A stretch of DNA of 27,816 bases from a virus. The stretch is taken from IMG/VR virus record IMGVR_UViG_3300036832_000352, positions 1-27,816 of that record; one strand, 5' to 3'. This document shows, in pieces, positions 2,868 to 24,445 of the stretch (positions are counted from its first letter, which is position 1; the number at the start of each line of letters is the position of its first letter). Both the position numbers and the translations under genes were made by a program. The notes under the pieces were generated by a model. The model did no database searches and was not told the origin of the DNA. It saw only the letters and a program-made list of their open reading frames with translations.

Positions 2868-2882
2868 GTTGTGAGTAACAAC
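2868..2882. promoter_or_regulatory. Operator copy 1 (GTTG-N7-CAAC), abutting scaffold ATG
   Basis: GTTGTGAGTAACAAC, arms GTTGT/ACAAC with a 5-bp centre. It ends one base before ATG 2883 and overlaps the -35-like TTGTTA of the possible ParB-gene promoter. It is one of five GTTG-N7-CAAC sites found in the window. Confidence 0.55.
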
Positions 2883-3983
2883 ATGGCCGATGCACCGCTT
2901 GCCGCGCCCGCGAGCGCGCCCGCCGCCCCTCCTGCTGCGCCCGCCTCCAACGGGCACGACCCGGGTGGGGCCGACAAGACCTATACCGTCACCGATACGA
3001 GGAGCGCGGGCGACGCGATCGCCGGGCTGCTCTTCAACGACGGTGACGACAAGGCGCCGCCCCCGCGTGCGCCCGATCAGCAATCCGGCGGTGACGAGCC
3101 GCCCGATCCCGGAGCGGAGGAAACCCCGCCCACCGAGAAAGACGACGACAAAGGCCCAGGCGAACAGCCGCCCAAACCGGCTGCCATCGAACCGCCCGCG
3201 TCATGGTCACAAGATGATCGAGCCGCCTTCTCGCAGCTCCCACCCGCGCTACAGCAGACCGTTGTCCGGCGGGAGAGCCAACGCGAAGCCGTGCTCACAC
3301 AACGCTCCCAGGAGGCCGCCGAGGCCCGCAGAGCCTTTGATGGCGAGCGGCAGGCGGCTGTGGCCCTCCGATCCGAATACCTGCAAGGCCTGCAGAAGAT
3401 GATGGTGCTGGCCGCCCCCGAGGCGGCGGCATTGCACAATGTCGACTGGGTCGCGGTGCAAGCGCAATCGCCGGCTGAGTACACTCGGCTCCACGCGATG
3501 CGCGAGCAGCTGCGCGCCAGGCTCGGTGCCATCGAGCAGGAGTTCCAACAGGGCCAAGGTCAGCTTGCCGTCGCTGCGCAGCAGCATCAGGTGACGCAGC
3601 TGACCGAGCTCGTGCAACGCGAGCATCTCGCGCTGAACGAGAAGATGCCCGACTTTGGCGACGAGGCGAAAGGTCCGCAGCTCCGCAAGGATCTCGGCAC
3701 CTACCTTCGCGACGGCGGGTTCACCGATCAGGAAATCGGCAAAGCCTACGATCACCGGCTGATTGTGCTGGCGACCAAGGCGATGCTGTACGACCGGCAG
3801 AACCAACTCAGCGCCGCCGCCGACGCCAAACGGAACAACGCCGCTCCCCAGGTCAGGCGTCCCGGCACCAGCCAGGACAACGACCAGGGCACGCAGCAGG
3901 GCCGCTTGCGGCAACGGATCAATCGGTTGGGCCGCACGAACAGTGTGCGCGACGCCGGTTCGCTCATCTCCGAATTGCTGTAA
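2883..3983 (+). CDS. Scaffold-like head assembly protein, 366 aa
   Basis: Lies between portal and major capsid genes, the usual place for a scaffold. The first ~110 residues are Pro/Ala/Asp-rich and disordered. A central region (~115-280) is rich in Gln, Glu and Arg (RRESQREAVLTQRSQEAAEARR, EQEFQQGQGQLAVAAQQ) and should be coiled-coil. The basic C-terminus (RLRQRINRLGRTNSVRDAG) is compatible with a coat-binding scaffold tail. ATG 2883 is preferred; TTG 2865 and GTG 2871 upstream in frame are alternatives because no clear Shine-Dalgarno precedes any of them. Assignment rests on position and composition. Confidence 0.7.
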   Translation: MADAPLAAPASAPAAPPAAPASNGHDPGGADKTYTVTDTRSAGDAIAGLLFNDGDDKAPPPRAPDQQSGGDEPPDPGAEETPPTEKDDDKGPGEQPPKPAAIEPPASWSQDDRAAFSQLPPALQQTVVRRESQREAVLTQRSQEAAEARRAFDGERQAAVALRSEYLQGLQKMMVLAAPEAAALHNVDWVAVQAQSPAEYTRLHAMREQLRARLGAIEQEFQQGQGQLAVAAQQHQVTQLTELVQREHLALNEKMPDFGDEAKGPQLRKDLGTYLRDGGFTDQEIGKAYDHRLIVLATKAMLYDRQNQLSAAADAKRNNAAPQVRRPGTSQDNDQGTQQGRLRQRINRLGRTNSVRDAGSLISELL

Positions 3984-4029
3984 CCGCTGACCCGATCGCG
4001 CCGGGCAGCTCCTTCATAGGGGAGCCGCC

Positions 4030-4983
4030 ATGGCTTTGCTTGGTAACACGTTTACGACCTACTCTGCCGTCGGTCTGAGGGAAGATCTCAGCGACATCAT
4101 CTACAACATCAGCCCGACCGAGACGCCGTTCATGACGGCGATCGCCCGTGAGAAGGCGACCGCGGTCTTCCATGAGTGGCAGACCGACGTCCTCGAGACG
4201 CCGAACGGCGCCAACGCCCAGATCCAGGGCGACGACATCAGCGCCTTCGATGCGGTGGTGCCGACCGTGCGGCGCGGCAATTACACGCAAATTTCGCGGA
4301 AGACCGTCATCATCGCGATGACGGAGGAGGCGGTCAACAAGGCCGGCCGGAAGAGCGAGATCGGCTACCAGGTCGCGAAGAAGGGCAAGTCCCTGAAGCG
4401 CGACATCGAGACGATCCTGCTGCAGAACCAGGCCCGCGCGCCCGGTACGGTCGGCGCCACGCCGGCCCTGACCGCCAGCGTCCTGTCGTGGCTCAAGACC
4501 AACGTCGCCAACGTCGTGGCCGGTGGCGCCAACCCTGCCGGGGACGGCACCAACACCCGCACCGATGGAACGACGCCGGTCGCCTTCACCGAGCCGATGC
4601 TGAAGACGGCGCTCGCCAGCGTTTGGCAGAGCTCGGGCGACGAGCCGGACCAGATCCTGGTCAACAGCAACCAGAAGGTCGCGATCTCGGCCTTCCCCGG
4701 CAACAACACCCGCTACATCAATGCCGAAGAAGAAAAGTTAGTCACCAGCATCGATGTCTATGTCTATGACTTTGGCACGGTCGAGGTGAAGCCGGATCGC
4801 TTCATGCGGCAGCGCGATGCGCTGATCCTCAACAGCGATCTCTGGGCACTGGCGTGGCTGCGCCCGATCAACCTGGTCGAGCTGGCGAAGACCGGTGACA
4901 ACGAGAAGAAGATGCTGGTCGGCGAGTACGCGCTGACCGCCCGCAACGAGGCCGGCTCGGGTCTGGTCGCCGATCTGCTCTAG
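4030..4983 (+). CDS. Major capsid protein, SU10-like (DUF5309 type)
   Basis: The 317-residue protein starts MALLGNTFTTYSAVGLREDL and has SPTETPFMTAI near residue 30, a hallmark of the SU10-type coat family in which an N-terminal arm leads into an HK97 fold. Later segments DQILVNSNQKVAIS and INLVELAKTGDNEKKMLVGEYALTARNE match the usual C-terminal A-domain and P-domain strands. It forms the icosahedral shell. A good ribosome site (GGGGAG) lies before ATG 4030. It follows the scaffold-like gene and is followed by hairpins, consistent with a separately tuned, highly expressed gene. Confidence 0.88.
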   Translation: MALLGNTFTTYSAVGLREDLSDIIYNISPTETPFMTAIAREKATAVFHEWQTDVLETPNGANAQIQGDDISAFDAVVPTVRRGNYTQISRKTVIIAMTEEAVNKAGRKSEIGYQVAKKGKSLKRDIETILLQNQARAPGTVGATPALTASVLSWLKTNVANVVAGGANPAGDGTNTRTDGTTPVAFTEPMLKTALASVWQSSGDEPDQILVNSNQKVAISAFPGNNTRYINAEEEKLVTSIDVYVYDFGTVEVKPDRFMRQRDALILNSDLWALAWLRPINLVELAKTGDNEKKMLVGEYALTARNEAGSGLVADLL

Positions 4984-4992
4984 CCACCTGGA

Positions 4993-5021
4993 AGCCTGGC
5001 GTCTGTGACGAGCGCCAGGCT
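4993..5021 (+). terminator. Stable hairpin downstream of major capsid gene
   Basis: AGCCTGGCG (4993-5001) pairs perfectly with CGCCAGGCT (5013-5021) across an 11-nt loop, 9 nt after the capsid stop. No T-run follows directly, so it may stabilise the mRNA 3' end or pause polymerase rather than terminate alone. Confidence 0.5.
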
Positions 5022-5062
5022 CGGCGGCCCGCTCTGCTCCAGGTTCCTCCCGGGTGCAGTCC

Positions 5063-5080
5063 GCGGGTCGCCGCTTTTTT
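5063..5080 (+). terminator. Weak intrinsic terminator before 5092 gene
   Basis: GCGG-gtcg-CCGC (5063-5074) is followed at once by six T residues (5075-5080). The stem is only 4 bp, so partial termination is likely. With the hairpin at 4993 it would raise capsid mRNA relative to downstream genes. The T-run also precedes the GAAGG ribosome site of the next gene. Confidence 0.5.
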
Positions 5081-5091
5081 GAAGGCTCGCC

Positions 5092-6039: not shown

Positions 6040-6374
6040 GCGCCGAGAACGGTTGGCGCTTCCTGTCGCGCGACCCGCTGACGGGCGCCGTCGAGCACTA
6101 CCGCTACGACCCCGACGGGGACCGCTGCATCATCCGGCGCACCGTCGATCACGAGCCGGTGATCGAGGCCAACAAGCGGCTCGCCAACTCCTGGGACGGC
6201 TGGAACAAGCGCAAGGACATGCGCCTGGCCGCCAGGTTGACCCCCGACATCCAGCTCGAGTGGCTGCAGAAATACGGGGTGCGGGCCTGGGACCGGAACC
6301 ACAAGAAGGCGGTGATCCGGCTGCTCAATAGCTCTGATTACCGCTATCTGCGGATCGGGCACTTCATCATCTGA
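6036..6374 (+). CDS. Conserved small podovirus-like structural-region protein, 112 aa
   Basis: ATG 6036 overlaps the previous TGA by 4 nt. The sequence contains YRYDPDGDRCIIRRTVDHEP, EANKRLANSWDGWNKRKDMR and a C-terminal NSSDYRYLRIG. I recognise the pattern DPDYRYLR with EANKRL from small proteins next to head-tail connector genes in other short-tailed phages, where the function is unassigned. The high Arg/Asp content and lack of signal or membrane segments suggest a cytoplasmic or virion protein. Position directly before the adaptor hints at a head-completion role. Confidence 0.6.
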   Translation: MSAENGWRFLSRDPLTGAVEHYRYDPDGDRCIIRRTVDHEPVIEANKRLANSWDGWNKRKDMRLAARLTPDIQLEWLQKYGVRAWDRNHKKAVIRLLNSSDYRYLRIGHFII

Positions 6375-6381
6375 GGGGCCC

Positions 6382-10365: not shown

Positions 10366-10373
10366 GGCCCCTC

Positions 10374-10826: not shown

Positions 10827-10829
10827 CCG

Positions 10830-15699: not shown

Positions 15700-17609
15700 C
15701 GACAGTCGATCTGCCTGGAGGCGACACGATCAACTTCCCCGACAATATGTCGGACGACGAGATCAATGCTGCCACCCAGCAGCACCTCTACCATGAGAGC
15801 TGGCGGGGGCAGATCAACGACACTGCCACGAACGCGGCGACCGGTATCCTCAAGGGCGTCGGCAACGTCGGTGGGCTACCGCACGTCGTGGCCGGCCTTG
15901 GCGACGCCGCCCCAGGGTATGGCGGCCTCGACGTGACCGGGCAGCCAATGACGCCTTACCAAGGGCCACCGCAGATGGGGCCGCCAGGCTTCCTCACCCG
16001 CCACACCTACTCGCCCGAGGAGATCAACAGCGGCATCTTTTCCGCCATCGACGCGATGCGCGCGGCCGTTGGCAACCCGGAGCGCGGGCCATACGTGCCA
16101 CAGACCGCCGCCGGCCGGATCGGGCAGGAGGCGCTTAGTCAGGCTATCCCTTCGCTCGTGGGCGGCGCGGAGACCGCGGTTCCTCGGATGATTGCCGGCA
16201 TGACCAGCGGCGGTGCCGGGCAGGCCGTGTCGGAGGTCGCTCCCAACGCGCCGGGCTGGGTCAGGCCCGCCGTCTCAATGGCAACCGGTCTAGCCACTGG
16301 TCGCCTTGCCGGCCCCAGGGCGACGTCGCCCACAACCGATGCAATGACGCGGCTCGGCATGACGCCGATGCGGCAGGATGTTAATGCTGGGCCTTTGACC
16401 CAGCTGGTTGCTGCGAATGTGACAAAGCTGCCTGGCTCAGGTGGTTACCGCGCCGCTCAGGCTCGCAATCTCGACCAGTGGGGCAATCAGCTCGAGAACA
16501 CAGCCGCCGACCTTGGCGCGTCGACCAATCCGCAGGAAGCCGGTACAGCCCTGCAGGTGGCTTCTGGCAACTGGATGGATCAGTTCAGAGCGAATAGCAG
16601 GCAGGCCTGGAACAATGTCGACATGCTGGTTCCTGGCGCCACTCCAGTGCCGGTCACCAACTACGCCAGAACGCTCAACCAGGTCCGCAGCCAGATGGCC
16701 GGCGCCCCGGCAACGGCGGATGTTTTACAGTCGCCATTGTCGCGAAATCTGCTCGATGCGCTGATCTCGGATGCCCGGATTGGCCGGCCGCTCGATTGGG
16801 ATACCGTGCGGGGCATGCGCACCCGGATCGGCGACATGCTCACCGATACAAATCTGATCGGCGACACAAATTACGGTGAGTTGCGCCGGATTTATGGGGC
16901 ACTGAGCGAAGATCTCAGAGGCGCGGTGCATCCGCTTGGATCGGATGCTGTCGATGCTTATAACGCGGCGAACAACCTGACCCGAGCCGGACATAGCTTT
17001 ATCGATGATACGGTCTCAAAGTACCTCGCTCCCCGCCCAGGAATGATCACTCCAGAGGCGGCCTATACGCGGGCGATGTCTGGTTCTGCGAGTGGTGGCA
17101 CAGGGCTGCAGGCGATCCGCGATGAGATGCCCGGCGCCGCTGACGAGCTAGCGGCAGCGCATTTGCGGCTGATGGGTCTGGCGACGCCGGGTCAGCGTGC
17201 GGCACCCAACATGGGGCCGATGGTCTCGCCGAATACATTCCTGACCAACACGAACAGGCTATCACCGCAGGCGTTTGACGCGCTCTACGGTGCTGACCCT
17301 GGCGTCGCAGGGCGCATCGCCGATTTGCGAACCGTTGGAAGCTCGATGCGGGACACTGCGCGATTTGCCAACACGAGCAACACCGCCCCGGTAGCCTCGT
17401 TACTCAGCGTGCCTAGCCTGGCGATGGGCGCGGCCGGCGGTGCGCTGGCTAAAGGTTATAGCTTGCCTACAGCCCTGCTCGCGGGAGGCGCGATGGGGGC
17501 TACGCCGTTGGCTGCTGGTTACCTGGGTTCCAGGTACTTGCGCTCGGTGCCGCGCACATTCTCTCCCGGCGCTCTGCCCGTCGGCGCGGTTCCCGGCCTG
17601 TTGCAGTAG
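15696..17609 (+). CDS. Large internal virion/ejection-like protein, 637 aa
   Basis: ATG 15696 is chosen because it overlaps the preceding stop (ATGA); an in-frame start at 15663 would lie inside the lysozyme gene. The N-terminus TVDLPGGDTINFPDNMSDDE followed by INAAT is the short F-P-D-x-M-S-D-x-E-I module seen at the start of phage ejection and tail-measure-type proteins. The body is largely helical (RGMRTRIGDMLTD, LRRIYGALSEDLRGAV, DAYNAANNLTRAGHSFID). A hydrophobic small-residue stretch near the C-terminus (PSLAMGAAGGALAKGYSLPT) could contact membrane. It is the last gene of the late block; its 3' end overlaps a convergent membrane-protein gene by 91 nt. Confidence 0.7.
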   Translation: MTTVDLPGGDTINFPDNMSDDEINAATQQHLYHESWRGQINDTATNAATGILKGVGNVGGLPHVVAGLGDAAPGYGGLDVTGQPMTPYQGPPQMGPPGFLTRHTYSPEEINSGIFSAIDAMRAAVGNPERGPYVPQTAAGRIGQEALSQAIPSLVGGAETAVPRMIAGMTSGGAGQAVSEVAPNAPGWVRPAVSMATGLATGRLAGPRATSPTTDAMTRLGMTPMRQDVNAGPLTQLVAANVTKLPGSGGYRAAQARNLDQWGNQLENTAADLGASTNPQEAGTALQVASGNWMDQFRANSRQAWNNVDMLVPGATPVPVTNYARTLNQVRSQMAGAPATADVLQSPLSRNLLDALISDARIGRPLDWDTVRGMRTRIGDMLTDTNLIGDTNYGELRRIYGALSEDLRGAVHPLGSDAVDAYNAANNLTRAGHSFIDDTVSKYLAPRPGMITPEAAYTRAMSGSASGGTGLQAIRDEMPGAADELAAAHLRLMGLATPGQRAAPNMGPMVSPNTFLTNTNRLSPQAFDALYGADPGVAGRIADLRTVGSSMRDTARFANTSNTAPVASLLSVPSLAMGAAGGALAKGYSLPTALLAGGAMGATPLAAGYLGSRYLRSVPRTFSPGALPVGAVPGLLQ

Positions 17610-17755
17610 ACGAAGCCATCGATGATCGAGACCAAGCCGAAGAGGATCGCGGACCCTGCGACAATGCCAATCGCGGCCATGATCCCAAAAGGCTGAGGCA
17701 ACGCTATGGCCGCTCCGATCACCAAGATGATCCAGCAATAGACGAAGAACAGCAT
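17519..17755 (-). CDS. Small two-segment membrane protein, 78 aa (holin candidate)
   Basis: Two hydrophobic segments are clear: residues 1-20 (LFFVYCWIILVIGAAIAL) and 24-48 (GIMAAIGIVAGSAILFGLVSI), then a 30-residue polar, basic tail. Size and topology fit a class II-type holin, but no endolysin gene is adjacent, so lysis is only a suggestion. ATG 17755 has GAGG 7 nt upstream. The last 91 nt overlap the ejection-protein gene tail to tail. A promoter-like TTGACG and an operator palindrome lie 38-66 nt upstream, so expression is probably under repressor control. Confidence 0.65.
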   Translation of the reverse strand: MLFFVYCWIILVIGAAIALPQPFGIMAAIGIVAGSAILFGLVSIIDGFVYCNRPGTAPTGRAPGENVRGTERKYLEPR

Positions 17756-17799
17756 CACCTAGCCTCGCGCGCAAAATTTGGCGCGGTTTAGCGGATATT

Positions 17800-17814
17800 G
17801 TTGCTAGATACAAC
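17800..17814. promoter_or_regulatory. Operator copy 2 (GTTG-N7-CAAC) within a minus-strand promoter
   Basis: GTTGCTAGATACAAC, 45 bp upstream of the membrane-protein ATG. On the minus strand a -35-like TTGACG (17816-17821) lies just before it and an AT-rich AATAT element (about 17794-17799) lies just after it, so the palindrome occupies the spacer. A bound protein there would block RNA polymerase. Confidence 0.6.
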
Positions 17815-17896
17815 ACGTCAAGGCGTAGCCGCCTTCCGCACACCTCACCTCACGGAGAGGCGGCCAGCAGGGGTATAGCGCCACTGTCCAAATATC

Positions 17897-17909
17897 GGTT
17901 GGACCAACC
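17897..17909. promoter_or_regulatory. 13-bp palindrome in small-gene intergenic region
   Basis: GGTTGGACCAACC is a perfect dyad. It overlaps a second one, GTCCAA (17886-17891) and TTGGAC (17899-17904) separated by 7 nt. They could form alternative RNA hairpins or protein sites. Between 17815 and 18168 this is the clearest structure I see besides a doubtful 93-aa reading frame. Confidence 0.35.
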
Positions 17910-17912
17910 CGC

Positions 17913-18194
17913 TCACCCGGCTTTGAGGCGCTCGCGCGTCGTGACTGGGGCCGGACCCGTAGGTGAGGTTCGTGGTGGCGTTGTCCGTAGTCTAGCTGGC
18001 ATCGACGTACAGCGGTCGGAAGCCCCTTTCGGGTGAAGATCCCGCCCCTTGATGGTTGCCCTACGCGCGCATCTCGATGGGCTGATTAAGCCATCCGCCA
18101 CCGGGTCGAATGGCGCCTTTTCACCGGCAGGCTGCGAGCCGTCGCTCTTCGCGAGATACGTGGCGAGATTAAGCCGCCCGATCCTGACTGGCAA
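17913..18194 (-). CDS. Doubtful 93-aa reading frame, TTG start
   Basis: A frame starting at TTG 18194, with GAGG about 6 nt upstream, overlaps the end of the 72-aa gene by 26 nt. The first ~55 codons are mostly G/C-ending and read NLATYLAKSDGSQPAGEKAP then FDPVADGLISP, which looks protein-like. The rest (CTSMPARLRTTPPRTSPTG) loses codon bias and looks non-coding. It may be a degraded gene, a short real gene, or part of a structured non-coding stretch. No family recognised; otherwise I see no gene in 17822-18168. Confidence 0.3.
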   Translation of the reverse strand: MPVRIGRLNLATYLAKSDGSQPAGEKAPFDPVADGLISPSRCARRATIKGRDLHPKGASDRCTSMPARLRTTPPRTSPTGPAPVTTRERLKAG

Positions 18195-18387
18195 TCATGG
18201 CCTCGATTGCGGCGTCGGCTTGTGCGAGCACCCACTCGCGCACCGCGCTGCTGACGTTCTCCCATGGCGGCGTCATGTGCCGGTCAAGCCCGCGCAGGCT
18301 CTCTTCTGGCAGCGACCAGTGTGTCATGTAGATCGCCCGAGCGACGGTTTCACGTTGCGTCATGGACACAGTGTACCACGACGGCAT
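18169..18387 (-). CDS. Small conserved phage protein, 72 aa
   Basis: Contains TQRETVARAIYMTHWSLPEE and PPWENVSSAVREWVLAQADA followed by AIEAM. The pattern of an R-E-x-V-A-R-A helix, then W-E-x-x-S-x-x-V-R-x-W-x-x-x-A-x-A-A-I-E-A-M is common in small uncharacterised proteins of rhizobial phages and prophages. ATG 18387 shares one base with the TGA of the upstream membrane-protein gene (TGATG). ATG 18363 is an in-frame alternative without that coupling or a ribosome site. Last confident gene of the minus-strand small-gene operon. Confidence 0.6.
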   Translation of the reverse strand: MPSWYTVSMTQRETVARAIYMTHWSLPEESLRGLDRHMTPPWENVSSAVREWVLAQADAAIEAMIASQDRAA

Positions 18388-18638
18388 CACCACCACCCCA
18401 GCGCTCGGCTCATCCAGTACAAATTCAGCAGCGCCAGGATCAGCCATACGATGCTGGCGATCCCTTGTGCCCGCGCCATCTTGACCTGCTGCTCGCCCAG
18501 CATCCACTGCGCTTGGGAGAGGCTGGTGAGCATCCCGAGCACCATGTTGTAGTTGGTCGGTGGCAGCGGCGCCCAGGCCGACAGCTCGAGCTCGTCATCC
18601 CAGGGGTTCTTCTGGGGCTTCTTCCAGGGCAACCTCAT
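18387..18638 (-). CDS. Small protein with one C-terminal membrane segment, 83 aa
   Basis: The N-terminus is basic (RLPWKKPQKNPWDDE), then a short helix (NMVLGMLTSLSQAQWMLGE) and one transmembrane segment at about 60-78 (IASIVWLILALLNLYWMSR). ATG 18638 has GAGG 5 nt upstream and lies in a 4-nt overlap with the preceding gene. This could be a spanin-like, holin-like or superinfection-exclusion protein; sequence alone does not decide. It is coupled to the following 72-aa gene through TGATG. Confidence 0.65.
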   Translation of the reverse strand: MRLPWKKPQKNPWDDELELSAWAPLPPTNYNMVLGMLTSLSQAQWMLGEQQVKMARAQGIASIVWLILALLNLYWMSRALGWW

Positions 18639-18738
18639 CGCCTCCTCGTGTTGCTCGCTCGATCAAGGTTTGGAACGGCAGCGGTGGGTCGACCTGCATC
18701 GCCGCGACCGCCTCGCGCACGGTCAGTCCCCGCCGCAT
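18595..18738 (-). CDS. Overlapping 47-aa frame, or frameshifted end of 18850 gene
   Basis: Within the 3' half of the 71-aa gene, the +1 frame starting ATG 18738 (GAGG 9 nt upstream) reads RRGLTVREAVAAMQVDPPLP then FQTLIERATRGG with mostly G/C-ending codons, while the 71-aa frame loses its codon bias at exactly this point. Either this is a short overlapping gene, or the two frames are one protein joined by a single-base change or a programmed +1 frameshift. Its last ~15 codons overlap the membrane-protein gene start, where the bias fades. Confidence 0.4.
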   Translation of the reverse strand: MRRGLTVREAVAAMQVDPPLPFQTLIERATRGGDEVALEEAPEEPLG

Positions 18739-18850
18739 CGAAGACCACCTCGAAATGGCAGCCAGGGTGGGCCGCGTCGTAATCGCGGATCCATTGGTGG
18801 AAGTGCTGCGCCAGCTCGTCGGGGATCTCGCCGGTCACGACCAGCTTCAT
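18635..18850 (-). CDS. 71-aa protein of unknown function, frame disputed after residue ~40
   Basis: Begins KLVVTGEIPDELAQHFHQW and IRDYDAAHPGCHFEVVF with nearly every codon ending G or C, so this part is convincingly coding. From DAAGTDRARGG onward, third-position G/C falls sharply and the sequence turns Arg-rich and unnatural, while the +1 frame becomes protein-like. ATG 18850 has an AGAGA ribosome-like site; longer starts at 18880/18883 lack one. The TGA at 18635 overlaps the next ATG (ATGA). It leads the small minus-strand operon. No family recognised. Confidence 0.5.
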   Translation of the reverse strand: MKLVVTGEIPDELAQHFHQWIRDYDAAHPGCHFEVVFDAAGTDRARGGRGDAGRPTAAVPNLDRASNTRRR

Positions 18851-18961
18851 CACGCTCTCTTGGTTCGTTGCCAGGACCATCATAAGGAGGCCGTTGCCTG
18901 ACAACAAGACGCCGGCTGTAGCGTTGCCGCCGCCGGCGTTGGTGTCTAGATCGTCACGGCG

Positions 18962-19048
18962 ACCTGACCAAACCCCTTGATTTTCCTCACTTCCGGAATT
19001 ACCGCTGCGACTTCCGGAAGTGAGGTTTATCAAAGACTTTGGTCAGGT
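18962..19048. repeat. 37-bp interrupted inverted repeat beside integrase
   Basis: Two 37-nt arms (18962-18998 and 19012-19048) pair at 30 of 37 positions around a 13-nt centre: ACCTGACCAAA/TTTGGTCAGGT, TTGAT/ATCAA and CCTCACTTCCGGAA/TTCCGGAAGTGAGG. The symmetric 4-nt and 3-nt internal gaps match in size. Each arm holds the palindrome TTCCGGAA, giving two copies 21 bp apart. An outer GTCACG (18953) also mirrors CGTGAC (19058). T5 follows on the plus strand. Candidates: attachment-site region, structured RNA, or terminator. Confidence 0.85.
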
Positions 19049-19058
19049 TTTTAGGGTC

Positions 19059-19088
19059 GTGACAGTTTTCTGATCAGGCGACTGTCAC
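19059..19088 (-). terminator. Inverted repeat spanning integrase stop codon
   Basis: GTGACAGT (19059-19066) and ACTGTCAC (19081-19088) are perfect inverse copies separated by 14 nt that include the integrase TGA. It could fold at the end of integrase mRNA or form part of the attachment region. No T-run follows on the minus strand, so intrinsic termination is doubtful. Confidence 0.45.
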
Positions 19089-20234
19089 GCCGCTCCGTAG
19101 CTGCATCACCCGCAGGCGGTTGAACTTCTCGGTATAGAGATCGACCTCGGTCGATTGCTTCCAGCCGTATTTCGCCTTGAGCCACGTCGGGTCCATGCCG
19201 CGCTCGACCGCGTCATCGCAGGCCGCCCGCTTGCGAAAGCTGTGGGCGCCGTAGCCGACAGGGACGCCGGCACGCCATAGCCAGCCACGGAACTGTTCAG
19301 AGAACAGGCGACCATCTGCGTGCGCCCTGGCCGCATTCCCTTCCGGGTCGTCCTCGATCGGGAGCCGCGAGAATGCCTTGCCGAGAGCCTGCCCCCGGCG
19401 CGGTTTGCGCCGGACGATCGGCCCGAGCTCGATGCCGGCGGCCTTGATCTCGGCGATCAGCTCGGGTGTCTGCTCGGTGACGAAGTCGACACCGGTCTTC
19501 AGTCGCTTGCCCTGGAAGAAGCCGTCCTTGATGTCCGACAGGCAGAGCCTGATCACGTCGCAGCAGGCGGCGCCGGTCACGTACAGCATCAGGCCGGCGA
19601 TGCGCTGTGGCGAGGCATAGGGCCAATAGTCGAGGTACTGCTGCAGCAGTTCCGGCGGCAGCGTCTTGAACCCGTCGTCGGCGGTGCGTTGCTTCTTCTG
19701 CCCGAAGGCCTTCACCCCGAAGGTGGGGTCGAAGTCGCGCTTGATCCTGAAGGCCTGCTTGCGCTCCTTGAGCATCACACTGACCGCGCCCAGCCAGGCG
19801 TTCGCGGCCCAATGCCCGTCCTCGGCCTGGCGCTCGGCCAGCTCTCGGCTGAGTAGCTCCGGGGTCAGATCGTAGATCGATGCATCCCCCTGGCCGACGC
19901 GCACCAGCTCGCCCGCGCGGTTGTGGCGACCGTCGACCCAGCCCATCAGGGCGTAGCCGCGGGTCACGCGAGTGCCGTGGCTTATGTTCTCGCGCCAGTA
20001 CACGCTCGCCATATGCTCGGTGACGACCTCACGGATTGTGAGGCCGCCGCCGAGCGATTTTTTTTTGCGCTCGATCGGCTTGTCGGCCGCCTTGGCGGCG
20101 GCGATCGCGTCCTTGTATTCGCGCGTCTTCAGCACCGCGGCGAGCGGGCCGTCCGGCAGCCGCACGCGGGTCTGCTGCTTGAACCGCAGGTAGTTACGAC
20201 CGTCGAAACTTTGCACGTAGTGCTTGGTTGGCAT
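19074..20234 (-). CDS. int: Tyrosine recombinase (phage integrase) with atypical first catalytic arginine
   Basis: The 386-aa protein has the C-terminal signatures of tyrosine recombinases: AHSFRKRA with H331 and R334, KYGWKQSTEVDLYTE with nucleophile Tyr367, and the beta-hairpin Lys region near KTGVDFVT (246). The box that normally reads T-G-x-R is TGAACCDVIRL (220-230): the usual Arg I position is Ala223. The N-terminal ~180 residues would form arm-binding and core-binding domains. ATG 20234 is chosen for GAGGAG 7 nt upstream. Its promoter and an operator lie inside the 3' end of the preceding small gene. Integration and excision are the expected roles. Confidence 0.85.
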   Translation of the reverse strand: MPTKHYVQSFDGRNYLRFKQQTRVRLPDGPLAAVLKTREYKDAIAAAKAADKPIERKKKSLGGGLTIREVVTEHMASVYWRENISHGTRVTRGYALMGWVDGRHNRAGELVRVGQGDASIYDLTPELLSRELAERQAEDGHWAANAWLGAVSVMLKERKQAFRIKRDFDPTFGVKAFGQKKQRTADDGFKTLPPELLQQYLDYWPYASPQRIAGLMLYVTGAACCDVIRLCLSDIKDGFFQGKRLKTGVDFVTEQTPELIAEIKAAGIELGPIVRRKPRRGQALGKAFSRLPIEDDPEGNAARAHADGRLFSEQFRGWLWRAGVPVGYGAHSFRKRAACDDAVERGMDPTWLKAKYGWKQSTEVDLYTEKFNRLRVMQLRSGVTVA

Positions 20235-20409
20235 TGAGGTTCTCCTCGTATCGGTTGCTGGTAGCCGGCTTGTTGCTACCACCAACATATATGACCAGCT
20301 TTCCCTCTCCGTCAACTTCCACGCGTGCGACATTTTCTCCAGCGTTTTTAACGGCTTTGACTAAAGCCGTGACATCACGCTGGCGGAAATTCCTCGGTCG
20401 GTTCGCCAT
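20194..20409 (-). CDS. Small integrase-leader protein, 71 aa
   Basis: Reads MANRPRNFRQRDVTALVKAV, then NAGENVARVEVDGEGKLVIYV, then a polar tail. Small proteins with this layout (F-x-x-x-D-V-x-x-x-x-K-A helix followed by V-E-V-x-x-x-G-K-[IL]-x-[IV]) commonly sit just before integrases in alphaproteobacterial prophages; their function is unknown, and an excisionase-like or regulatory role is only a guess. Codons are much less G/C-biased than in neighbours. It overlaps the previous gene by 35 nt and integrase by 41 nt, so its 3' half also carries the integrase promoter. Confidence 0.6.
   Translation of the reverse strand: MANRPRNFRQRDVTALVKAVKNAGENVARVEVDGEGKLVIYVGGSNKPATSNRYEENLNANQALRAKFRRS
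20272..20315 (-). promoter_or_regulatory. Integrase promoter with operator copy 3
   Basis: On the minus strand TTGACG (20310-20315) and TATATG (20286-20291), 18 bp apart, form a promoter-like pair. Operator GTTGCTACCACCAAC (20272-20286, plus strand) begins at the end of the -10 element, and a half copy GTTGCTGGTAGCC starts 18 bp further downstream (20254). The ATG of integrase is about 50 nt below the -10. Repressor control of integrase is the straightforward reading. Confidence 0.6.
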
Positions 20410-20680
20410 CCAATTGTGCAATGTTTGCAGAGGTTTGCGCCCGCATTTCCGGCGTCGGGTAGGTCACGCCCTTGCCGTGGATCCACTCGAATGAGGTGTA
20501 GCCCCAGCGGTCCTCGATGATGACGCGCCGGGTGGTGCCGATCCTGGCGCCCAGGGTCTCGGTCATGCGCTTCGCCAGCTCGACCGCATGCTGTGCGTCG
20601 AGATCCTCGCCGACGCACTCGTGCCAGTCGTCGGGGAAGAACTGCCAGACCCTGTAAGGCGCACCGCTATCGTCCGTCAT
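20375..20680 (-). CDS. Hypothetical early-operon protein, 101 aa
   Basis: Soluble, mixed alpha/beta protein: YRVWQFFPDDWHECVGEDLD, HAVELAKRMTETLGARIGTT, RRVIIEDRWGYTSFEWIHGK. The strand-turn-strand with W-x-x-T-S-F-E-W suggests a small beta sheet packed on one helix. ATG 20680 is chosen for AGGGGG 5 nt upstream and overlaps the previous gene by 14 nt. No family recognised. Position within the leftward early operon suggests early expression. Confidence 0.6.
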   Translation of the reverse strand: MTDDSGAPYRVWQFFPDDWHECVGEDLDAQHAVELAKRMTETLGARIGTTRRVIIEDRWGYTSFEWIHGKGVTYPTPEMRAQTSANIAQLDGEPTEEFPPA

Positions 20681-21221
20681 CGGTCCCCCTGGGGGCACTG
20701 AGAGCGTCGAGGATCATGTTGCCGGTCCTGGTCTCGACCCGCTGCATGCCGTCACCGCCGACGACATGCCACTCGCCGTCGGTGGCGAGCCTCGGCGGGA
20801 AGACCGCGACCGCCGAGCTGCTGCCGTAGCGCAGCAGCAGCGCCATGCCCTCCTCGGCCTGGCGCTCCGCATACCGCATGAGCCGCCGGTCCTGGAGCGG
20901 ATCGCAGCCAGGCTCGACCCAGACCTGGATCACCGTGACCATGTATTTTTCGCCGGTTTCATTATTCGTTGCCTGCACGGCGTCGGGCACGACGTCGAGC
21001 ACGTAGCCGACCCGGTCGGGCCGCAGCATGTCGGCGGTGCCGTGCCCGTTCAGCCAGCGGCACGACCACACCGCGCAGCTCATCGGGAAGCCGGGGCGAC
21101 GGTAGATCCGGCAGCCCCTGGCGGCGCTCTGGTGCTCGCAGCGGGTGTTCGCCGGCTTCTGCAACTCACGCACCGGTAGCAGCTTGCAGCACAGCGTGCA
21201 GGCGCCGCAGACCCTAGGCAT
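20667..21221 (-). CDS. Cysteine-rich YkgJ/UPF0153-like protein, 184 aa
   Basis: Eight cysteines cluster in the first 54 residues: C5-x2-C8-x2-C11-C12, C28, C37, C49 and C54. The opening CGACTLCCKLLPV and later CRIYRRPGFPMSC resemble the YkgJ/UPF0153 putative metal- or Fe-S-binding domain. The rest of the protein, including MVTVIQVWVEPGCDPLQDRR, lacks known motifs. Members of this type are frequent in rhizobial prophages but their phage role is unknown. It overlaps both neighbours by 8-14 nt in the recombination operon. Confidence 0.7.
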   Translation of the reverse strand: MPRVCGACTLCCKLLPVRELQKPANTRCEHQSAARGCRIYRRPGFPMSCAVWSCRWLNGHGTADMLRPDRVGYVLDVVPDAVQATNNETGEKYMVTVIQVWVEPGCDPLQDRRLMRYAERQAEEGMALLLRYGSSSAVAVFPPRLATDGEWHVVGGDGMQRVETRTGNMILDALSAPRGTDDGR

Positions 21222-21480
21222 GACCGGGCTCGCTTATCGACCGGATCTGGACGCCAGCTTGCTCGGCGAGAAATTGCTCGCAGATGTAGCGGGTGACCGC
21301 GCTGGCGGCGGCCAGTAAATGCGACTGCTCGGCGTCCCCTCTCTCCATGTCCTTCTTGATGGCCGCCGCCAGCTCGGCGGGATCCGGGTGCTGCGGCTGG
21401 TCGTAGTGGTAGCCGATGACCCACAAGGCGATGACACGGTAGAGGTCGATCTCGACGTGGTGCTCAGTGATCTCGCTCAT
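21214..21480 (-). CDS. Hypothetical early-operon protein, 88 aa
   Basis: An acidic, helical protein: HHVEIDLYRVIALWVIGYHY, HPDPAELAAAIKKDMERGDA, LLAAASAVTRYICEQFLAEQ. Hydrophobic positions are spaced as in amphipathic helices rather than a membrane segment. ATG 21480 is in a 4-nt overlap with the preceding gene and its stop overlaps the YkgJ-like start by 8 nt. No family recognised; role possibly accessory to recombination by context. Confidence 0.55.
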   Translation of the reverse strand: MSEITEHHVEIDLYRVIALWVIGYHYDQPQHPDPAELAAAIKKDMERGDAEQSHLLAAASAVTRYICEQFLAEQAGVQIRSISEPGHA

Positions 21481-21971
21481 GCCATCTCTCCCTGGGCCTC
21501 GAGGGTCTCTTTGCTGACCCCGATGAGGCTGGCGACATAGTTGAGAACGTCGTCCATCGATCGGTTGAAGTCGTCGCGTCCCATGGCTTTGTAGCTCTGC
21601 GATCGCGCGGTCCAGACGCGCACCAGGGCGTCGTGGGTGGTGACGATCGCGTAATCGTCCAGGCCGCGCACGAACGCAGCGGTGCGCTCGGCCCGCTCGC
21701 GGGTTTCACAGGCCAGCACCCGCTCCTGCCGCCAGCCGGTCTTGATCAGCGCAAACTTGCGCAGATGCTCCGAGGTCGGGAAATCGTCGGTGGCGATGCT
21801 GCCCCAGGCCTCGTGCAGCGCCGCGAAATAGGCCCGGTGCCTGGCATGCGCGCGGGCGTGGTGCGCCTCGAGCAGGTAGCGCCCGTCGACAATGAACTGC
21901 CGCGCCGCCTCGTCGGGCCGCATCGGCACCATGACGGCACCGTTGTATCGATACCAGAGCGGGTCAGCCAT
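21477..21971 (-). CDS. Conserved alphaproteobacterial phage protein next to YqaJ, 164 aa
   Basis: The pattern V-P-M-R-P-x-x-A-x-R-Q-F (14-25), AYFAALHEAWGS, FPTSEHLRKFALIKTGW and a C-terminal ARSQSYKAMGRDDFNRSMDD helix is one I recognise from proteins that sit beside YqaJ exonuclease and annealing-protein genes in rhizobial prophages. No catalytic motif is obvious. A possible role is modulation of recombination or replication, on context alone. It overlaps the nuclease gene by 8 nt and the next gene by 4 nt, so all are co-transcribed. Confidence 0.65.
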   Translation of the reverse strand: MADPLWYRYNGAVMVPMRPDEAARQFIVDGRYLLEAHHARAHARHRAYFAALHEAWGSIATDDFPTSEHLRKFALIKTGWRQERVLACETRERAERTAAFVRGLDDYAIVTTHDALVRVWTARSQSYKAMGRDDFNRSMDDVLNYVASLIGVSKETLEAQGEMA

Positions 21972-22605
21972 CGGCCTCGCTCCGCAACAGCATGTCGAGC
22001 ACGCTCGCCCTGGGCGTCATCCCGATCCGGCGCACGATCTCCTCGAGCTCGGCGGCGAATTTGGTGATTTCGTTAGCCAGGGTCTCGATGTACTCCGCGT
22101 CGCGATCGACCCTGACGACAAACAGCGGCATGCCCGGCCAGTAGGCGACGAAGTCGACCCAGGACCGCTCGGTGATCCACAGGCCGCCCTGGAGCTGGGC
22201 CTTGTGCTCGGCCGGCACATGGCCCTGGGCGAGCACGTCGACCATCAGCGCCGGCAATCTTGTCTTGATCTCGAGCATGCCGTCGTCGCCGATCAGCGCA
22301 TCGGGGCTGCAGCCGGCGATCTCGTTGCGGACAAAGCCCACGATCGTCGGCTCGACCTCATTGAGGAAGGCATAGAGCTCGCGCGCCTCGGCCTCGAGCT
22401 CCTTGCCGCGCCGGAAATGGTAGTTGGAAAAAGTCTCCTGCGTCTCGCCGAGGATCCGCTCAGCGGCTAGGCGGCATAGATAGCCGCGCCGGACTTTGCC
22501 CTGGCCCTTCGCTAGGATGGCGCCGAACTCCGACGCCGTCGGCAGGCCGAGGCGCGCCTCATACCATTCCGGCGAGCCCTGCGGCATATCGAGGACCTGG
22601 ATCAC
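21964..22605 (-). CDS. YqaJ-family viral recombinase exonuclease, 213 aa
   Basis: Begins MIQVLDMPQGSPEWYEARLG, the standard start of YqaJ/lambda-exonuclease-like PD-(D/E)XK enzymes. GKELEAEARELY (67-78) is the conserved helix, GCSPDALIGDDGMLEIKTRL supplies Asp102, Glu112 and Lys114 of the D...ExK active site, and HKAQLQGGLWITERSWVDF is the following Q-x-Q-G-type helix. It resects double-stranded DNA 5'-3' to give 3' tails for the ERF partner. ATG 22605 overlaps the ERF stop (ATGA), as expected for an exonuclease/annealing pair. Confidence 0.88.
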   Translation of the reverse strand: MIQVLDMPQGSPEWYEARLGLPTASEFGAILAKGQGKVRRGYLCRLAAERILGETQETFSNYHFRRGKELEAEARELYAFLNEVEPTIVGFVRNEIAGCSPDALIGDDGMLEIKTRLPALMVDVLAQGHVPAEHKAQLQGGLWITERSWVDFVAYWPGMPLFVVRVDRDAEYIETLANEITKFAAELEEIVRRIGMTPRASVLDMLLRSEADG

Positions 22606-23369
22606 GGGCGATCCTTTCGCGCCGCCTCCCGCTTCGCGGCAGCGTCCTGCAGAGCGCGCTCGGCAACCCGGTAACGCCGCGCCGGCAGCTGGTCGAGGCT
22701 CGGGATCTTGAGGAACGCACAGAACCGGCGCATGTCGACCTGCGCGACGTCGGCGAGCGCCTGCAGCGCCTCACGCTCGCCCTCCGAGATCAGCTTCGTG
22801 CCGCCGGCCACACCGTCATCGTCGGCGCCGCGGGAGGTCAGATTGAGGAGCGCCCTGGCGGTGTAGCGCATGCCGTACGAGGTGCTGCTGCCGTAGGCCT
22901 GGACCGTGTTCTTGTTGCCGCTGGTGTCGAGCGGCAGCGGCAGGGTGGTGCGCTGCGAGTGACCCGCGCGATGGTGTAGGATCGCGGTCACGGCGATCTG
23001 ACCCTCCTCGCGCGCGACCTCGAAATTGAGGCTGAAGCCGTGCGCCGCCAAGATCGGCTTGATCGCCCGCTGCACGTCCTCCCACTTGGCGTAGGTCGAC
23101 TGCACCTCGCCCTGCTTGTCGAGGATCTCGCCCTGCTCCTCGATCTCTGGCAGCAGCGGCTGCATCTCAGAGAGGGCGGCGGCGTAAGCCATCTCGGCCT
23201 CGCGCGTCTTGTGGCGCTCGTGCAACGCCATCAGCCGCTCGAGCTTATCCACATCGGTCTGTGGATCACTCGCGGCCCTGGCGATGATGTCGAGGAGCGT
23301 CCGCTCCTCGCTCCGGGGGACAACCTCGAATGGGCCTCCGGGTGTGAGGTCGAGCTGCTGATCGCTCAT
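22602..23369 (-). CDS. erf: ERF-family single-strand annealing protein, 255 aa
   Basis: Contains FAALSEMQ-like AYAAALSEMQPLLPEI (61-76), QSTYAKWEDVQRAIKPILAA (90-109), GFSLNFEV and SYGMRYTARALLNL (164-177), the ordered signatures of the ERF single-strand annealing family. The C-terminal ~60 residues are basic and likely flexible. Together with the adjacent YqaJ nuclease it makes a phage recombination system, used for genome circularisation or repair. It follows the 45-aa membrane peptide through TGATG coupling. Confidence 0.87.
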   Translation of the reverse strand: MSDQQLDLTPGGPFEVVPRSEERTLLDIIARAASDPQTDVDKLERLMALHERHKTREAEMAYAAALSEMQPLLPEIEEQGEILDKQGEVQSTYAKWEDVQRAIKPILAAHGFSLNFEVAREEGQIAVTAILHHRAGHSQRTTLPLPLDTSGNKNTVQAYGSSTSYGMRYTARALLNLTSRGADDDGVAGGTKLISEGEREALQALADVAQVDMRRFCAFLKIPSLDQLPARRYRVAERALQDAAAKREAARKDRP

Positions 23370-23506
23370 CAGAGCAGCACCCCGAGCGCCAGGAGCCCGA
23401 GGAGCGCCAGGGCGAAACCGATCAGCGATCGTGAATTGTAGGTCGTCGGTCGACCGGTCTCCTGCACCGTTCGCAGGAGGTTAACGAGACCGGCAGCGAT
23501 GTGCAT
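23369..23506 (-). CDS. 45-aa membrane peptide heading recombination operon
   Basis: ATG 23506, with GGGGG about 5 nt upstream, encodes MHIAAGLVNLLRTVQETGRP followed by a 19-residue hydrophobic segment to the C-terminus (IGFALALLGLLALGVLL). The TGA shares one base with the ERF start (TGATG), arguing that it is translated. It is the first gene below an operator copy and the bipartite element. It might act in superinfection exclusion or membrane attachment, but nothing in the sequence decides this. Confidence 0.6.
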   Translation of the reverse strand: MHIAAGLVNLLRTVQETGRPTTYNSRSLIGFALALLGLLALGVLL

Positions 23507-23535
23507 TTCGGCCCCCGTCTTGGGTGGGGAGCCAT

Positions 23536-23550
23536 GTTGGCACTGTCAAC
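23536..23550. promoter_or_regulatory. Operator copy 4 (GTTG-N7-CAAC) upstream of recombination operon
   Basis: GTTGGCACTGTCAAC, 30 bp upstream of the 45-aa peptide start. Read on the minus strand it contains a perfect -35-like TTGACA, so repressor binding would directly occlude the promoter; I see no convincing -10 17 bp below. Confidence 0.55.
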
Positions 23551-23551
23551 A

Positions 23552-23569
23552 AACCCCGTCTAGGGGGTT
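23552..23569 (-). terminator. Hairpin after XRE gene
   Basis: AACCCC (23552-23557) and GGGGTT (23564-23569) pair around a 6-nt loop, 23-40 nt after the XRE gene stop. On the minus strand TTTGTTG follows, a weak T-tract. It may terminate the repressor transcript before the recombination operon; it also overlaps the bipartite element described separately. Confidence 0.4.
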
Positions 23570-23576
23570 CGCAACA
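23554..23576 (-). promoter_or_regulatory. Bipartite element TGTTGCGAAC-N5-AGACGGGG, copy A
   Basis: On the minus strand TGTTGCGAAC (23576-23567), CCCCT, then AGACGGGG (23561-23554), 48 nt upstream of ATG 23506. A second AGACGGGG lies at 23513-23520. The same bipartite sequence occurs at 27576-27599 on the plus strand. Confidence 0.55.
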
Positions 23577-23591
23577 AAATCGAACAGAGGG

Positions 23592-24089
23592 TCAGTCCGA
23601 CTGTCCCTGTTGGCGCAGTACGCGCTTGGTGATCTCCAGCATCATCTCCTCGCGGTCCTGGTTCGACAGGAGCCGCCAGGAGGTGACCAGGAAGAGCTCG
23701 AACGGCGCGTAGTTTTTCTTGTCGAGCTCGGCCTCGGAGCTGGCCGTTTCCGGTTTGTGGCCGTGGTGGGGCGTGGTCTTCGCCTCAATCGCCACGCGTC
23801 GGGTCCAGTCGGCCGACTTACATTCGCCGATGAGGTTCTGGATGCCGAGCTCGTAATACGCTGCCATGCTCTTCAGCCCTGCCCAGCTGGTGCGCGATCG
23901 GCCTAGCTCGATGTTCGACAGATGTGGTCGGGAGATCCCGATCCCTCTTGCGGCAACGTCCTGGCTGATCTGACGTTGCTTGCGGATGCCGCCGAGGTGA
24001 CGGCCCAACCTACACCTCAGCTCGGGGTTGTCGTCCAGCAGTAAATCGATTGGCAGCTGGTTTTCTTGCCGCTCCTCCTCGTCGGTCAC
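23592..24089 (-). CDS. XRE-family transcriptional regulator, repressor candidate, 165 aa
   Basis: Residues ~28-88 form a helix-turn-helix domain of the lambda-repressor type: LGGIRKQRQISQDVAARGIG, then SRPHLSNIELGRSRTSW and LKSMAAYYELG. The C-terminal ~75 residues (AIEAKTTPHHGHKPETASSE, PFELFLVTSWRLLSNQDREE) are helical and show no LexA-type Ser/Lys protease features, so self-cleavage on DNA damage is not expected. GTG 24089 is chosen for AGGAG 9 nt upstream; a longer frame would enter the divergent gene. It faces the Cro-like gene across 88 bp, the classic lysis-lysogeny arrangement. Confidence 0.78.
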   Translation of the reverse strand: MTDEEERQENQLPIDLLLDDNPELRCRLGRHLGGIRKQRQISQDVAARGIGISRPHLSNIELGRSRTSWAGLKSMAAYYELGIQNLIGECKSADWTRRVAIEAKTTPHHGHKPETASSEAELDKKNYAPFELFLVTSWRLLSNQDREEMMLEITKRVLRQQGQSD

Positions 24090-24109
24090 GTCGGGGTTCT
24101 CCTCTCCAA

Positions 24110-24127
24110 CATGCAAAATTCTGTATG
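24110..24127. promoter_or_regulatory. 18-bp imperfect palindrome between xre and cro genes
   Basis: CATGCAAAATTCTGTATG matches its own reverse complement at 14 of 18 positions, centred on AATT, 21 bp upstream of the XRE start. It differs from the GTTG-N7-CAAC sites and could be the binding site of the second regulator. Confidence 0.4.
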
Positions 24128-24171
24128 GCAACGTTTGCGCTTGACGCAGCCAATGTCGCAGGCTCAGGCTC

Positions 24172-24186
24172 GTTGCCATGAGCATC
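24172..24186. promoter_or_regulatory. Degenerate operator over cro start codon
   Basis: GTTGCCATGAGCATC fits GTTGC-N5-GCAAC at 9 of 10 arm positions. It covers ATG 24178 of the Cro-like gene, so it could let a regulator block this gene's expression. Confidence 0.4.
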
Positions 24187-24408
24187 GATGATCTCGCGCA
24201 GCTCGCGGGGGGCATTGGTCGGCTGGCGGATGCGGCCGGGGTGCATTGGTCGACCGTGTGCGGCTGGAAGCGGACGAAACACGCCCTCGTCCCAGTCCAC
24301 CGCGCCAGGATGATCTCCAAAGAGCTTGGCATTCCACTGCATCTGATCCGGCCGGACGTCTGGACGCCCGCCCCTGAGACCTCGCATCACGACTTGGTTA
24401 CCGCATAG
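24178..24408 (+). CDS. Cro-like / YdaS-like small DNA-binding protein, 76 aa
   Basis: A compact HTH protein: IDDLAQLAGGIGRLADAAGV, HWSTVCGWKRTKH, VPVHRARMISKELGIPLHLI then RPDVW. This layout (G-x-x-x-L-A-x-x-x-G-V-x-x-x-T-V-x-x-W, then a K-E-L-G-I-P helix and R-P-D-[VI]-[WF]) is that of YdaS/Cro-type regulators opposite phage repressors. It probably commits the phage to lytic growth by shutting off the XRE gene. It is divergent from XRE and precedes the replication arm. Its ribosome site is weak, which may suit low-level expression. Confidence 0.75.
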   Translation: MSIDDLAQLAGGIGRLADAAGVHWSTVCGWKRTKHALVPVHRARMISKELGIPLHLIRPDVWTPAPETSHHDLVTA

Positions 24409-24430
24409 CCCCGCCACCGTCCAGCACATT

Positions 24431-24445
24431 GTTGCGACTAGCAAC
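24431..24445. promoter_or_regulatory. Operator copy 5 (perfect GTTGC-N5-GCAAC) upstream of replication arm
   Basis: GTTGCGACTAGCAAC, the most symmetric copy, in the 104-bp gap between the cro-like stop and the VRR-NUC start, flanked by T and A to give TGTTG...CAACA. A promoter could not be fixed with confidence; GTGACA (24470-24475) with TTACCT 17 bp on is one possibility. Confidence 0.6.

Follow-up and report, generated by a model that had tools for sequence, protein, structure and literature searches.

The C1 repressor of phage P1 has 22 operators dispersed over the phage genome; they are 17 bp long and asymmetric (ATTGCTCTAATAAATTT) (PMC8546580). The SPBRE of SPbeta, a repeated intergenic element first found in silico, was later shown to be the 15-bp site of the master repressor MrpR (PMC10516654). 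Cluster A mycobacteriophages carry many copies of a repressor site, the stoperators, throughout their genomes (PMC9283540), and DdrO of Deinococcus has a 17-bp palindrome (RDRM) that stands at scattered promoters, near -35/-10 (PMC5552922, PMC8533742). The subject of this article is a set of inverted repeats of the form GTTG-N7-CAAC in the complete IMG/VR virus record IMGVR_UViG_3300036832_000352, a stretch of 27,816 bases that is referred to throughout as the window. These repeats appear to be dispersed phage repressor operators of the P1/SPbeta type, with a sequence and a regulator family of their own, and not a new kind of element. The reading argued below, which is considered probable, is that they are 19-bp operators bound by a dimer of a protein from the phage's xre/cro immunity module, most likely its 165-aa XRE repressor, which would hold the prophage silent.

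The window contains five exact matches to GTTG-N7-CAAC, all of them where a preliminary description had located them, and no sixth:

2868 to 2882, unstranded: putative operator site 1, GTTGTGAGTAACAAC, flanked by a ParB-like accessory gene that points leftward and by the scaffold ATG (2883)
17800 to 17814, unstranded: putative operator site 2, GTTGCTAGATACAAC, in a stretch poor in genes, with a possible membrane open reading frame (ORF) of 79 aa, on the minus strand, 42 bp downstream of it
20272 to 20286, unstranded: putative operator site 3, GTTGCTACCACCAAC, within the 3' end of a xis-like gene, with the integrase start 38 bp downstream of it
23536 to 23550, unstranded: putative operator site 4, before the recombination (ERF) operon, with its minus-strand CAACAT arm at the -10 position
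24431 to 24445, unstranded: putative operator site 5, GTTGCGACTAGCAAC, between cro and the VRR-NUC gene

The flanked form TGTTG-N7-CAACA, which had been ascribed to four of the five, is exact at four, site 1 departing from it by one mismatch. Five copies compare with 0.44 expected from 4-mer frequencies (close to the ~0.4 per 27.8 kb originally estimated) and with a mean of 0.16 and a maximum of 1 in dinucleotide shuffles, none of 100 of which reached five; the reversed control, CAAC-N7-GTTG, is absent from the record. That every copy sits at a gene start or promoter holds in part: by a simple codon-usage gene finder, sites 2, 4 and 5 are intergenic, and site 1 adjoins the likely scaffold ATG at 2883 (the finder's own start, 2871, falls just within the site), but site 3 lies in coding sequence. 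When all 3,840 dyad types (256 arms x 15 spacers) are ranked for the window alone, GTTG-N7 comes third (P = 9e-5) and its outer extension, TGTT-N9, first (P = 6e-6). The choice of motif within the window alone is post hoc, and relatives were therefore sought for an independent test.

A search with the major capsid protein retained 80 of 366 loci; the records of 23 were scanned for the motif, and 14 of these have a site. Profiles of XRE and Cro led to eleven and seven loci, respectively, which overlap, and a VRR-NUC profile added no new records. The set of XRE-positive relatives, from which the window and its sister are excluded, comprises nine records totalling 196,088 bases (G006, G015, G016, L142, L145, L146, L148, L149 and L150). 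Left out of the relatives' counts are L144, whose XRE region is the same as that of L145, and G001, which is nearly identical to the window. An XRE-minus set of ten records (G005, G009 and the fragments L131, L132 and L134-L139; 174,044 bases) serves for comparison. G004 and L133, both of which end short of the XRE region, belong to neither set, nor do the distant head relatives G017-G023.

In the nine XRE-positive relatives, GTTG-N7 ranks first among the 3,840 dyads, with 26 sites against 3.78 expected (P = 7e-14), and every one of the nine has at least one exact site. The longer forms ATGT-N11 and TGTT-N9 rank fourth and fifth; their presence among the top five indicates that the full operator is the 19-bp ATGTTG-N7-CAACAT. 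At the other spacer lengths from 0 to 14, GTTG/CAAC pairs number between 0 and 14, spacers 1 (14) and 13 (7) being next in abundance. The gene finder places nineteen of the 26 sites between genes, where 3.9 would be expected (18 without L142 9035, which sits in a xis-like gene that the finder missed). Over the window and these nine relatives, the ten XRE-positive records, the backward control occurs 6 times (3 of them intergenic) against 31 sites. The longer sister record, IMGVR_UViG_3300036846_000954 (G001; 43,423 bases, near-identical to the window), has eight sites and no backward control. At equivalent places in different records it is the arms that are alike: pairwise identity is 81-92% in the arms, 32-74% in the spacers and 30-47% in ungapped flanks. 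A second arrangement, GTTG-N1-CAAC, is likewise overrepresented in the relatives (14 found and 3.8 expected, 9 of the 14 intergenic), mostly in G015 (L125-L127) and G006 (L119-L121).

The two regulators of the immunity module are divergently arranged between sites 4 and 5:

23592 to 24089, minus strand: XRE-family regulator of 165 aa, HTH_31 (PF13560), putative repressor (hidden Markov model (HMM) match and predicted fold)
24178 to 24408, plus strand: Cro-like regulator of 76 aa, matching phrog_35 (transcriptional repressor) at E 3e-7, with a weak profile match (E 0.02-0.06) to Cro proteins of solved structure

The sites track this module. The ten XRE-minus relatives in head genes contain 2 sites where 3.66 would be expected, and both fall within genes of G009. 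Two of these ten are full-length by size, G005 (43,377 bases, no site) and G009 (44,222 bases, the two coding sites); they share the head genes, and XRE and Cro were not detected in them by HMM. A matrix was built from 27 of the 36 exact sites, nine judged coding, incidental or uncertain being excluded, and its scores for those 27 are consequently circular; at score 9 it finds no site in G005 and, in G009, 5 sites of which 1 is intergenic, as compared with 7 in the window, 11 in G006, 10 in G015 and 13 in G016, four records that themselves supplied training sites. The Bradyrhizobium phage ppBeUSDA76-2 has related head genes and related ERF (45%) and YqaJ (55%) proteins, no match to XRE or Cro, and no site in the 39,183 of its 41,843 bases that were covered. 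Since intergenic sites are missing from G005, G009 and ppBeUSDA76-2 despite the shared genes, the sites go with neither the head genes nor the recombination genes (ERF/YqaJ) nor, as far as can be judged, the host.

Within XRE-positive records the sites stand repeatedly at the same genes. Site 5 is present in eight of the nine XRE-positive records that cover the gap between cro and VRR-NUC, the window included: exact in the window, L142 and L150, with one core mismatch in G006, G015, G016, L145 and L146, and not seen in L149 (the gap is not covered by L148). Near one end of the sister record, beside a VRR-NUC gene 89% identical to that of the window, stands a variant of site 5 in which both arms are the same and one spacer base is changed. 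Both ends of that record (1-700 and 43269-43423) carry the VRR-NUC/cro region, in versions whose VRR-NUC is 89% and 100% identical to the window's, as if strains had been mixed in assembly. The first gene beyond site 5 is

24513 to 24956, plus strand: VRR-NUC nuclease (PF08774, E 2e-5)

A site-like dyad precedes the ERF operon in all ten XRE-positive records, and the features that surround it in the window are these:

22602 to 23369, minus strand: ERF single-strand annealing protein (PF04404, E 2e-15), in the operon downstream of site 4
23557 to 23562, minus strand: putative -35 element TAGACG of the recombination-operon promoter, 17 bp before CAACAT and matching TTGACA at 4 of 6 positions
23510 to 23533, minus strand: predicted leader hairpin (RNA fold) immediately after site 4, its 3' arm containing the likely ribosome-binding site

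In nine of these records the core of site 4 has no mismatch (the window, L145, L146, L149), one (G016, L148) or two (G006, G015, L142); in the tenth, L150, it has one, by eye. Its right arm is CAACAT, replaced by CATCAT in G006 and G015. The arm lies 17-19 bases behind a hexamer that matches TTGACA at 4-5 of 6 positions in five of the nine records and at 3 of 6 in four; the hexamer is of the TTG type in seven, the exceptions being TAGACG in the window and TGCACG in L142 (which has TTGCAC one base further). Where TATGTT is taken as the -10 element, a 4/6 hexamer stands at spacer 17 in 5 of 23 sites and at spacer 20 in another 5. A sigma-70 -35 element at a fixed distance from every site, in either orientation, was considered and rejected, the pattern being suggestive for the recombination promoter and the TATGTT subset and not for all sites.

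The hairpin that follows the site-4 arm occurs at the same place in the window, G006, G015, G016, L142, L145, L146, L148, L149 and L150, with differing sequences and the pairing kept. Its z-scores run from -1.3 to -5.0, below the shuffle mean in all ten, those of the window (-1.26) and G006 not being significant alone; translational control is a possible function. The hairpin belongs to the leader of a ~45-aa membrane-type ORF (window 23369-23506, minus strand), which opens the recombination operon ahead of ERF, and one of different sequence is found by eye at the same place in the ten XRE-positive records. A boxB-like RNA hairpin with a stem of 5 bp and a loop of 5 bases was also weighed, by eye, for sites 1 and 5; it was dropped, since on the plus strand sites 2 and 3 do not preserve the fifth pair.

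Site 3, which had been assigned to the integrase promoter, does lie 38 bp before the integrase start in a promoter-like stretch, but that stretch is itself coding sequence of a small upstream gene:

19074 to 20234, minus strand: tyrosine integrase (phrog_1 integrase, E 6e-6), with homologues of 24-40% identity in six relatives
20194 to 20409, minus strand: xis-like small gene containing site 3, 43-64% identical in relatives
20310 to 20315, minus strand: putative -35 element TTGACG of an integrase promoter inside the xis-like gene, from aligned xis sequences, with a putative -10 element ATATAT at 20287-20292

The small gene has no Pfam or PHROG match, so that "xis" is a label by position only. 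Its counterpart of site 3 is exact in G004, G006, G015 and L142 and degenerate in G016. Ahead of it stands TTGA(C/T)-N17-ATATAT in the window, G004, G015 and G016, and ATTTAT takes the place of ATATAT in G006; L142 has no TTGA. The window and the four records with an exact counterpart spell the site with rare codons, GTT (6-11% of Val) and GGT (6-14% of Gly), and for this reason it is the DNA rather than the protein that seems to be conserved here; in G016 the counterpart is broken by wobble changes. The integrases that lie behind the four exact counterparts are 28-40% identical to that of the window. Just downstream of the integrase, at 18963-19048, a long imperfect inverted repeat was noticed by eye (outer pair CCTGACCAAA / TTTGGTCAGG, inner pair CTCACTTCCGGAA / TTCCGGAAGTGAG), a candidate terminator or attachment site.

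Site 1, one of the two that remain, has an accessory gene and the scaffold gene as its neighbours:

1940 to 2821, minus strand: ParB-like accessory gene (phrog_1033, E 3e-9, on the longer ORF 1940-2977; bounds from the gene finder)
2883 to 3983, plus strand: head scaffold gene (phrog_3927, E 3e-29)

At the place of site 1, ahead of the scaffold gene, all six records that carry inserted genes there have a core with at most one mismatch (exact in the window, G004, L133 and G015, one mismatch in G016 and L137), as does one of seven without inserted genes (G006), a contrast in which some of the records are close kin. Site 2 is seen again only in the near-identical sister. It is intergenic, but its description as a membrane-protein promoter is unproven, since the possible 79-aa ORF (17519-17758) is not called by the gene finder and, among 29 loci searched, finds a match only in the sister. 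Around this site some 560 bases (17610-18168) are without a called gene; no Rfam family reaches its gathering threshold in the window. Other sites of the relatives precede an excisionase-like gene (L148 4627 and L149 8503, by eye) and small genes without assigned function. A more tentative suggestion, less likely than the operator assignment itself, is that the operator serves as a shared address label of the phage lineage: newcomer accessory genes would bring a copy with them and so come under the resident repressor from the start, and a promoter-operator would be kept inside a small gene despite the divergence of the integrase behind it.

What these placements would mean for a prophage can be put simply. 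A dimer of XRE on ATGTTG-N7-CAACAT would lie over the promoter and keep RNA polymerase off several promoters at once: at site 4 the promoter of the recombination operon, at site 5 that of the replication-side operon, at site 3 that of integrase and at sites 1 and 2 those of accessory genes. Loss of the repressor would release all operator-bearing promoters jointly. What the sequences show directly is the sites, their excess over chance, their return at the same genes and their association with the xre/cro module; that XRE and not Cro is the bound protein, that its binding represses and that this maintains lysogeny is inferred. The proposal of a putative repressor regulon including integrase and an accessory gene is supported, with the corrections that site 3 is coding, that the operator is longer and that the cro-xre gap, considered next, holds imperfect copies only.

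The structure predicted for XRE is helical (mean predicted local distance difference test (pLDDT) score 78.5), and its N-terminal part resembles ClgR, DdrO, SinR, ImmR and Stl, the best Foldseek match having E 0.009 and none reaching E 0.001. The closest solved sequence is DdrO (6jq1, E 0.0014 by phmmer, over the helix-turn-helix (HTH)); the structural alignment covers residues 24-96 only. The stretch SRPHLSN is identical in 10 of 10 XRE sequences. The cro-xre gap has a core with at most one mismatch in seven of the ten records, against 0.68 in Markov simulations, of which none in 1,000 reaches seven. These one-mismatch cores lie over the cro start codon in the window, L142, L148 and L149, and further into the gap in the window, G006, L145 and L146. 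The window has one of each kind:

24172 to 24186, unstranded: imperfect copy GTTGCCATGAGCATC with a single mismatch in the core, overlapping the cro start codon; similar copies in L142, L148 and L149
24096 to 24110, unstranded: imperfect copy GTTCTCCTCTCCAAC, also with a single mismatch in the core, immediately before the XRE start, with the half-site CAACAT at 24107-24112 including flank

Half-sites (ATGTTG/CAACAT) number 8 in the ten gaps, against 0.96 expected from the Markov model, 0.82 from whole-record density and 2.41 from intergenic density. The weaker copies over the cro start and before xre might tune the xre/cro pair. In the gaps of G006, G015, L145 and L146 there is also GTTG-N13-CAAC, in which the half-sites are six bases further apart. 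G016 has GTAG in place of GTTG on one arm of three counterpart sites (at the xis-like gene, ERF and VRR-NUC), a hint, from one record, that operators and regulator may drift together.

An obvious competitor of XRE is its neighbour. The Cro-like protein, made from its own promoter after infection, could itself bind the sites and turn down or switch the early, integrase and accessory promoters, while XRE would use other sequences to act on the cro promoter. Of the two proteins, Cro is the more strongly conserved (59-70% identical to the window protein in four-sequence alignments, against 38-39% for XRE); it is found by HMM in nine of the ten XRE-positive records plus the sister, and its start can be located by eye in the tenth, L148; and the cro-xre gap offers in most records a CTTGAC-like -35 element for cro, by eye, and no exact site. 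However, Cro varies around its HTH (mostly WSTVCG[WFY], with HHSTVCGW in L149 and L150) where the SRPHLSN of XRE is constant, and the one-mismatch copies in seven gaps speak against it as well. In lambda-type phages Cro uses the repressor's operators, which is counted here against Cro as the binder. This alternative is considered unlikely. XRE is the likelier binder, since its recognition stretch is as invariant as the arms of the site and since a repressor would explain why recombination, replication, integrase and accessory genes share a single site.

Other explanations fare worse. The CII-dependent PI promoter of lambda lies inside a small gene just before int, and site 3 occupies a promoter-like stretch inside just such a gene, so that a CII-like activator, switching on integrase and repressor synthesis, comes to mind. 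Yet the sites are inverted and not direct repeats, cover the -10 position of the recombination promoter instead of flanking -35, and stand at recombination and replication genes as well; there is no CII homologue among the window proteins that were scanned, which are not all of its proteins, and an activator of this kind is quite improbable. The spacing of the arms fits ordinary HTH dimers, and no host genome was found (the genome contigs scanned for a host have no relative of Cro or XRE). If a host transcription factor were the binder, the sites would reflect the host and not a phage regulon; relatives that share the head genes and lack XRE/Cro (G005, G009) have no intergenic sites, and the Bradyrhizobium phage with a related ERF has no site, which makes this highly improbable. 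The suspicion that five matches were picked afterwards from among many dyads draws on the mere third rank of GTTG-N7 in the window. Its first rank in nine other records, at the same genes, disposes of chance, which is scarcely credible and is rejected. Among individual proteins, the ParB-like protein is an unlikely binder because site 1 is kept where its gene is replaced or missing, as is the DUF6456 protein (26656-27204), of which G005 and G009 have a 57-59% homologue without intergenic sites. The alphaproteobacterial LexA box is a direct repeat, GTTC-N7-GTTC; all five window sites are inverted repeats, and LexA is rejected as the wrong repeat type.

Several observations weigh against XRE-bound operators. 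None of the ten records has an exact site in the cro-xre gap, where a master repressor would be expected to have one, and one arm of the copies over the cro start coincides with conserved first codons of Cro, so that part of the signal there may be coding. XRE and Cro are found together wherever both would be visible, each with a conserved HTH stretch, and their co-occurrence consequently cannot choose between them. G015 has as many backward controls as sites (4 each, and 4 of all 6 controls), XRE-positive G016 has only two exact sites, one of them coding, and in each of the distant head relatives G017-G023 there is a single site, while their control matches add up to 10 (1, 2, 1, 3, 0, 3 and 0). 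The relatives are not phylogenetically independent (L145/L146 and G004/L133, for example), and of the ten XRE-minus records eight, among them L137 with its one-mismatch site, are fragments that perhaps do not extend to the immunity region. There is also no general -35 element: of 41 oriented sites ending in CAACAT, a 4/6 match is found at spacer 17 in 2 and at spacer 18 in 3, no better than at some other spacers, and a consensus scan of 17400-25000 finds no sigma-70 promoter.

To our knowledge, no member of this group of uncultured soil phages has been studied. Literature searches for analogues returned no work on this system among the matches listed, and six spellings of the motif are absent from 5.39 million PubMed Central (PMC) papers, which says little, as authors write motifs in many ways. 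The sites offer, at the level of sequence, a regulon for uncultured soil phages in which recombination, replication, integrase and accessory genes appear to be wired to one switch, and a clear example in which to study how a prophage repressor gains control of accessory genes.

The likenesses to, and differences from, known systems are instructive. The general plan is that of the lambda immunity region: a repressor gene and cro diverge, genes for recombination and genes of replication type flank them on opposite sides, and regulated promoters lie further out in both directions. In lambda the operators come in threes, at OL and OR beside cI and cro, whereas here single sites stand at distant promoters and the cro-xre gap has only imperfect copies. 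DdrO is the closest solved XRE protein by sequence and is among the fold matches of the HTH part, and its palindrome likewise stands at scattered promoters; it serves, however, a cellular DNA-damage regulon and has a different half-site. An IrrE/ImmA-type protease is not among the 20 window proteins scanned with Pfam, the window being an incomplete genome. With the stoperators the sites share the distribution of many copies of one (here putative) repressor site through a genome. The stoperators, to go by the published account cited, have an asymmetric 13-bp consensus, are bound by a monomer and also stop elongation, whereas the present sites are dyads with both arms conserved, mostly near gene starts. 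The parallel with SPbeta is that of a repeated intergenic element, found by computation, leading to the site of a master repressor (proposed in the present case); MrpR has a tyrosine-recombinase-like fold and the SPBRE was proven by chromatin affinity purification sequencing (ChAP-seq) and electrophoretic mobility shift assay (EMSA), while here the candidate is an XRE HTH protein and the sites are putative. As in P1, finally, one phage repressor (putative here) would command many scattered operators. Unlike those of P1, these are symmetric dyads, of which the window has 5 and the 43-kb sister 8, and the protein proposed to bind them belongs to the XRE family.

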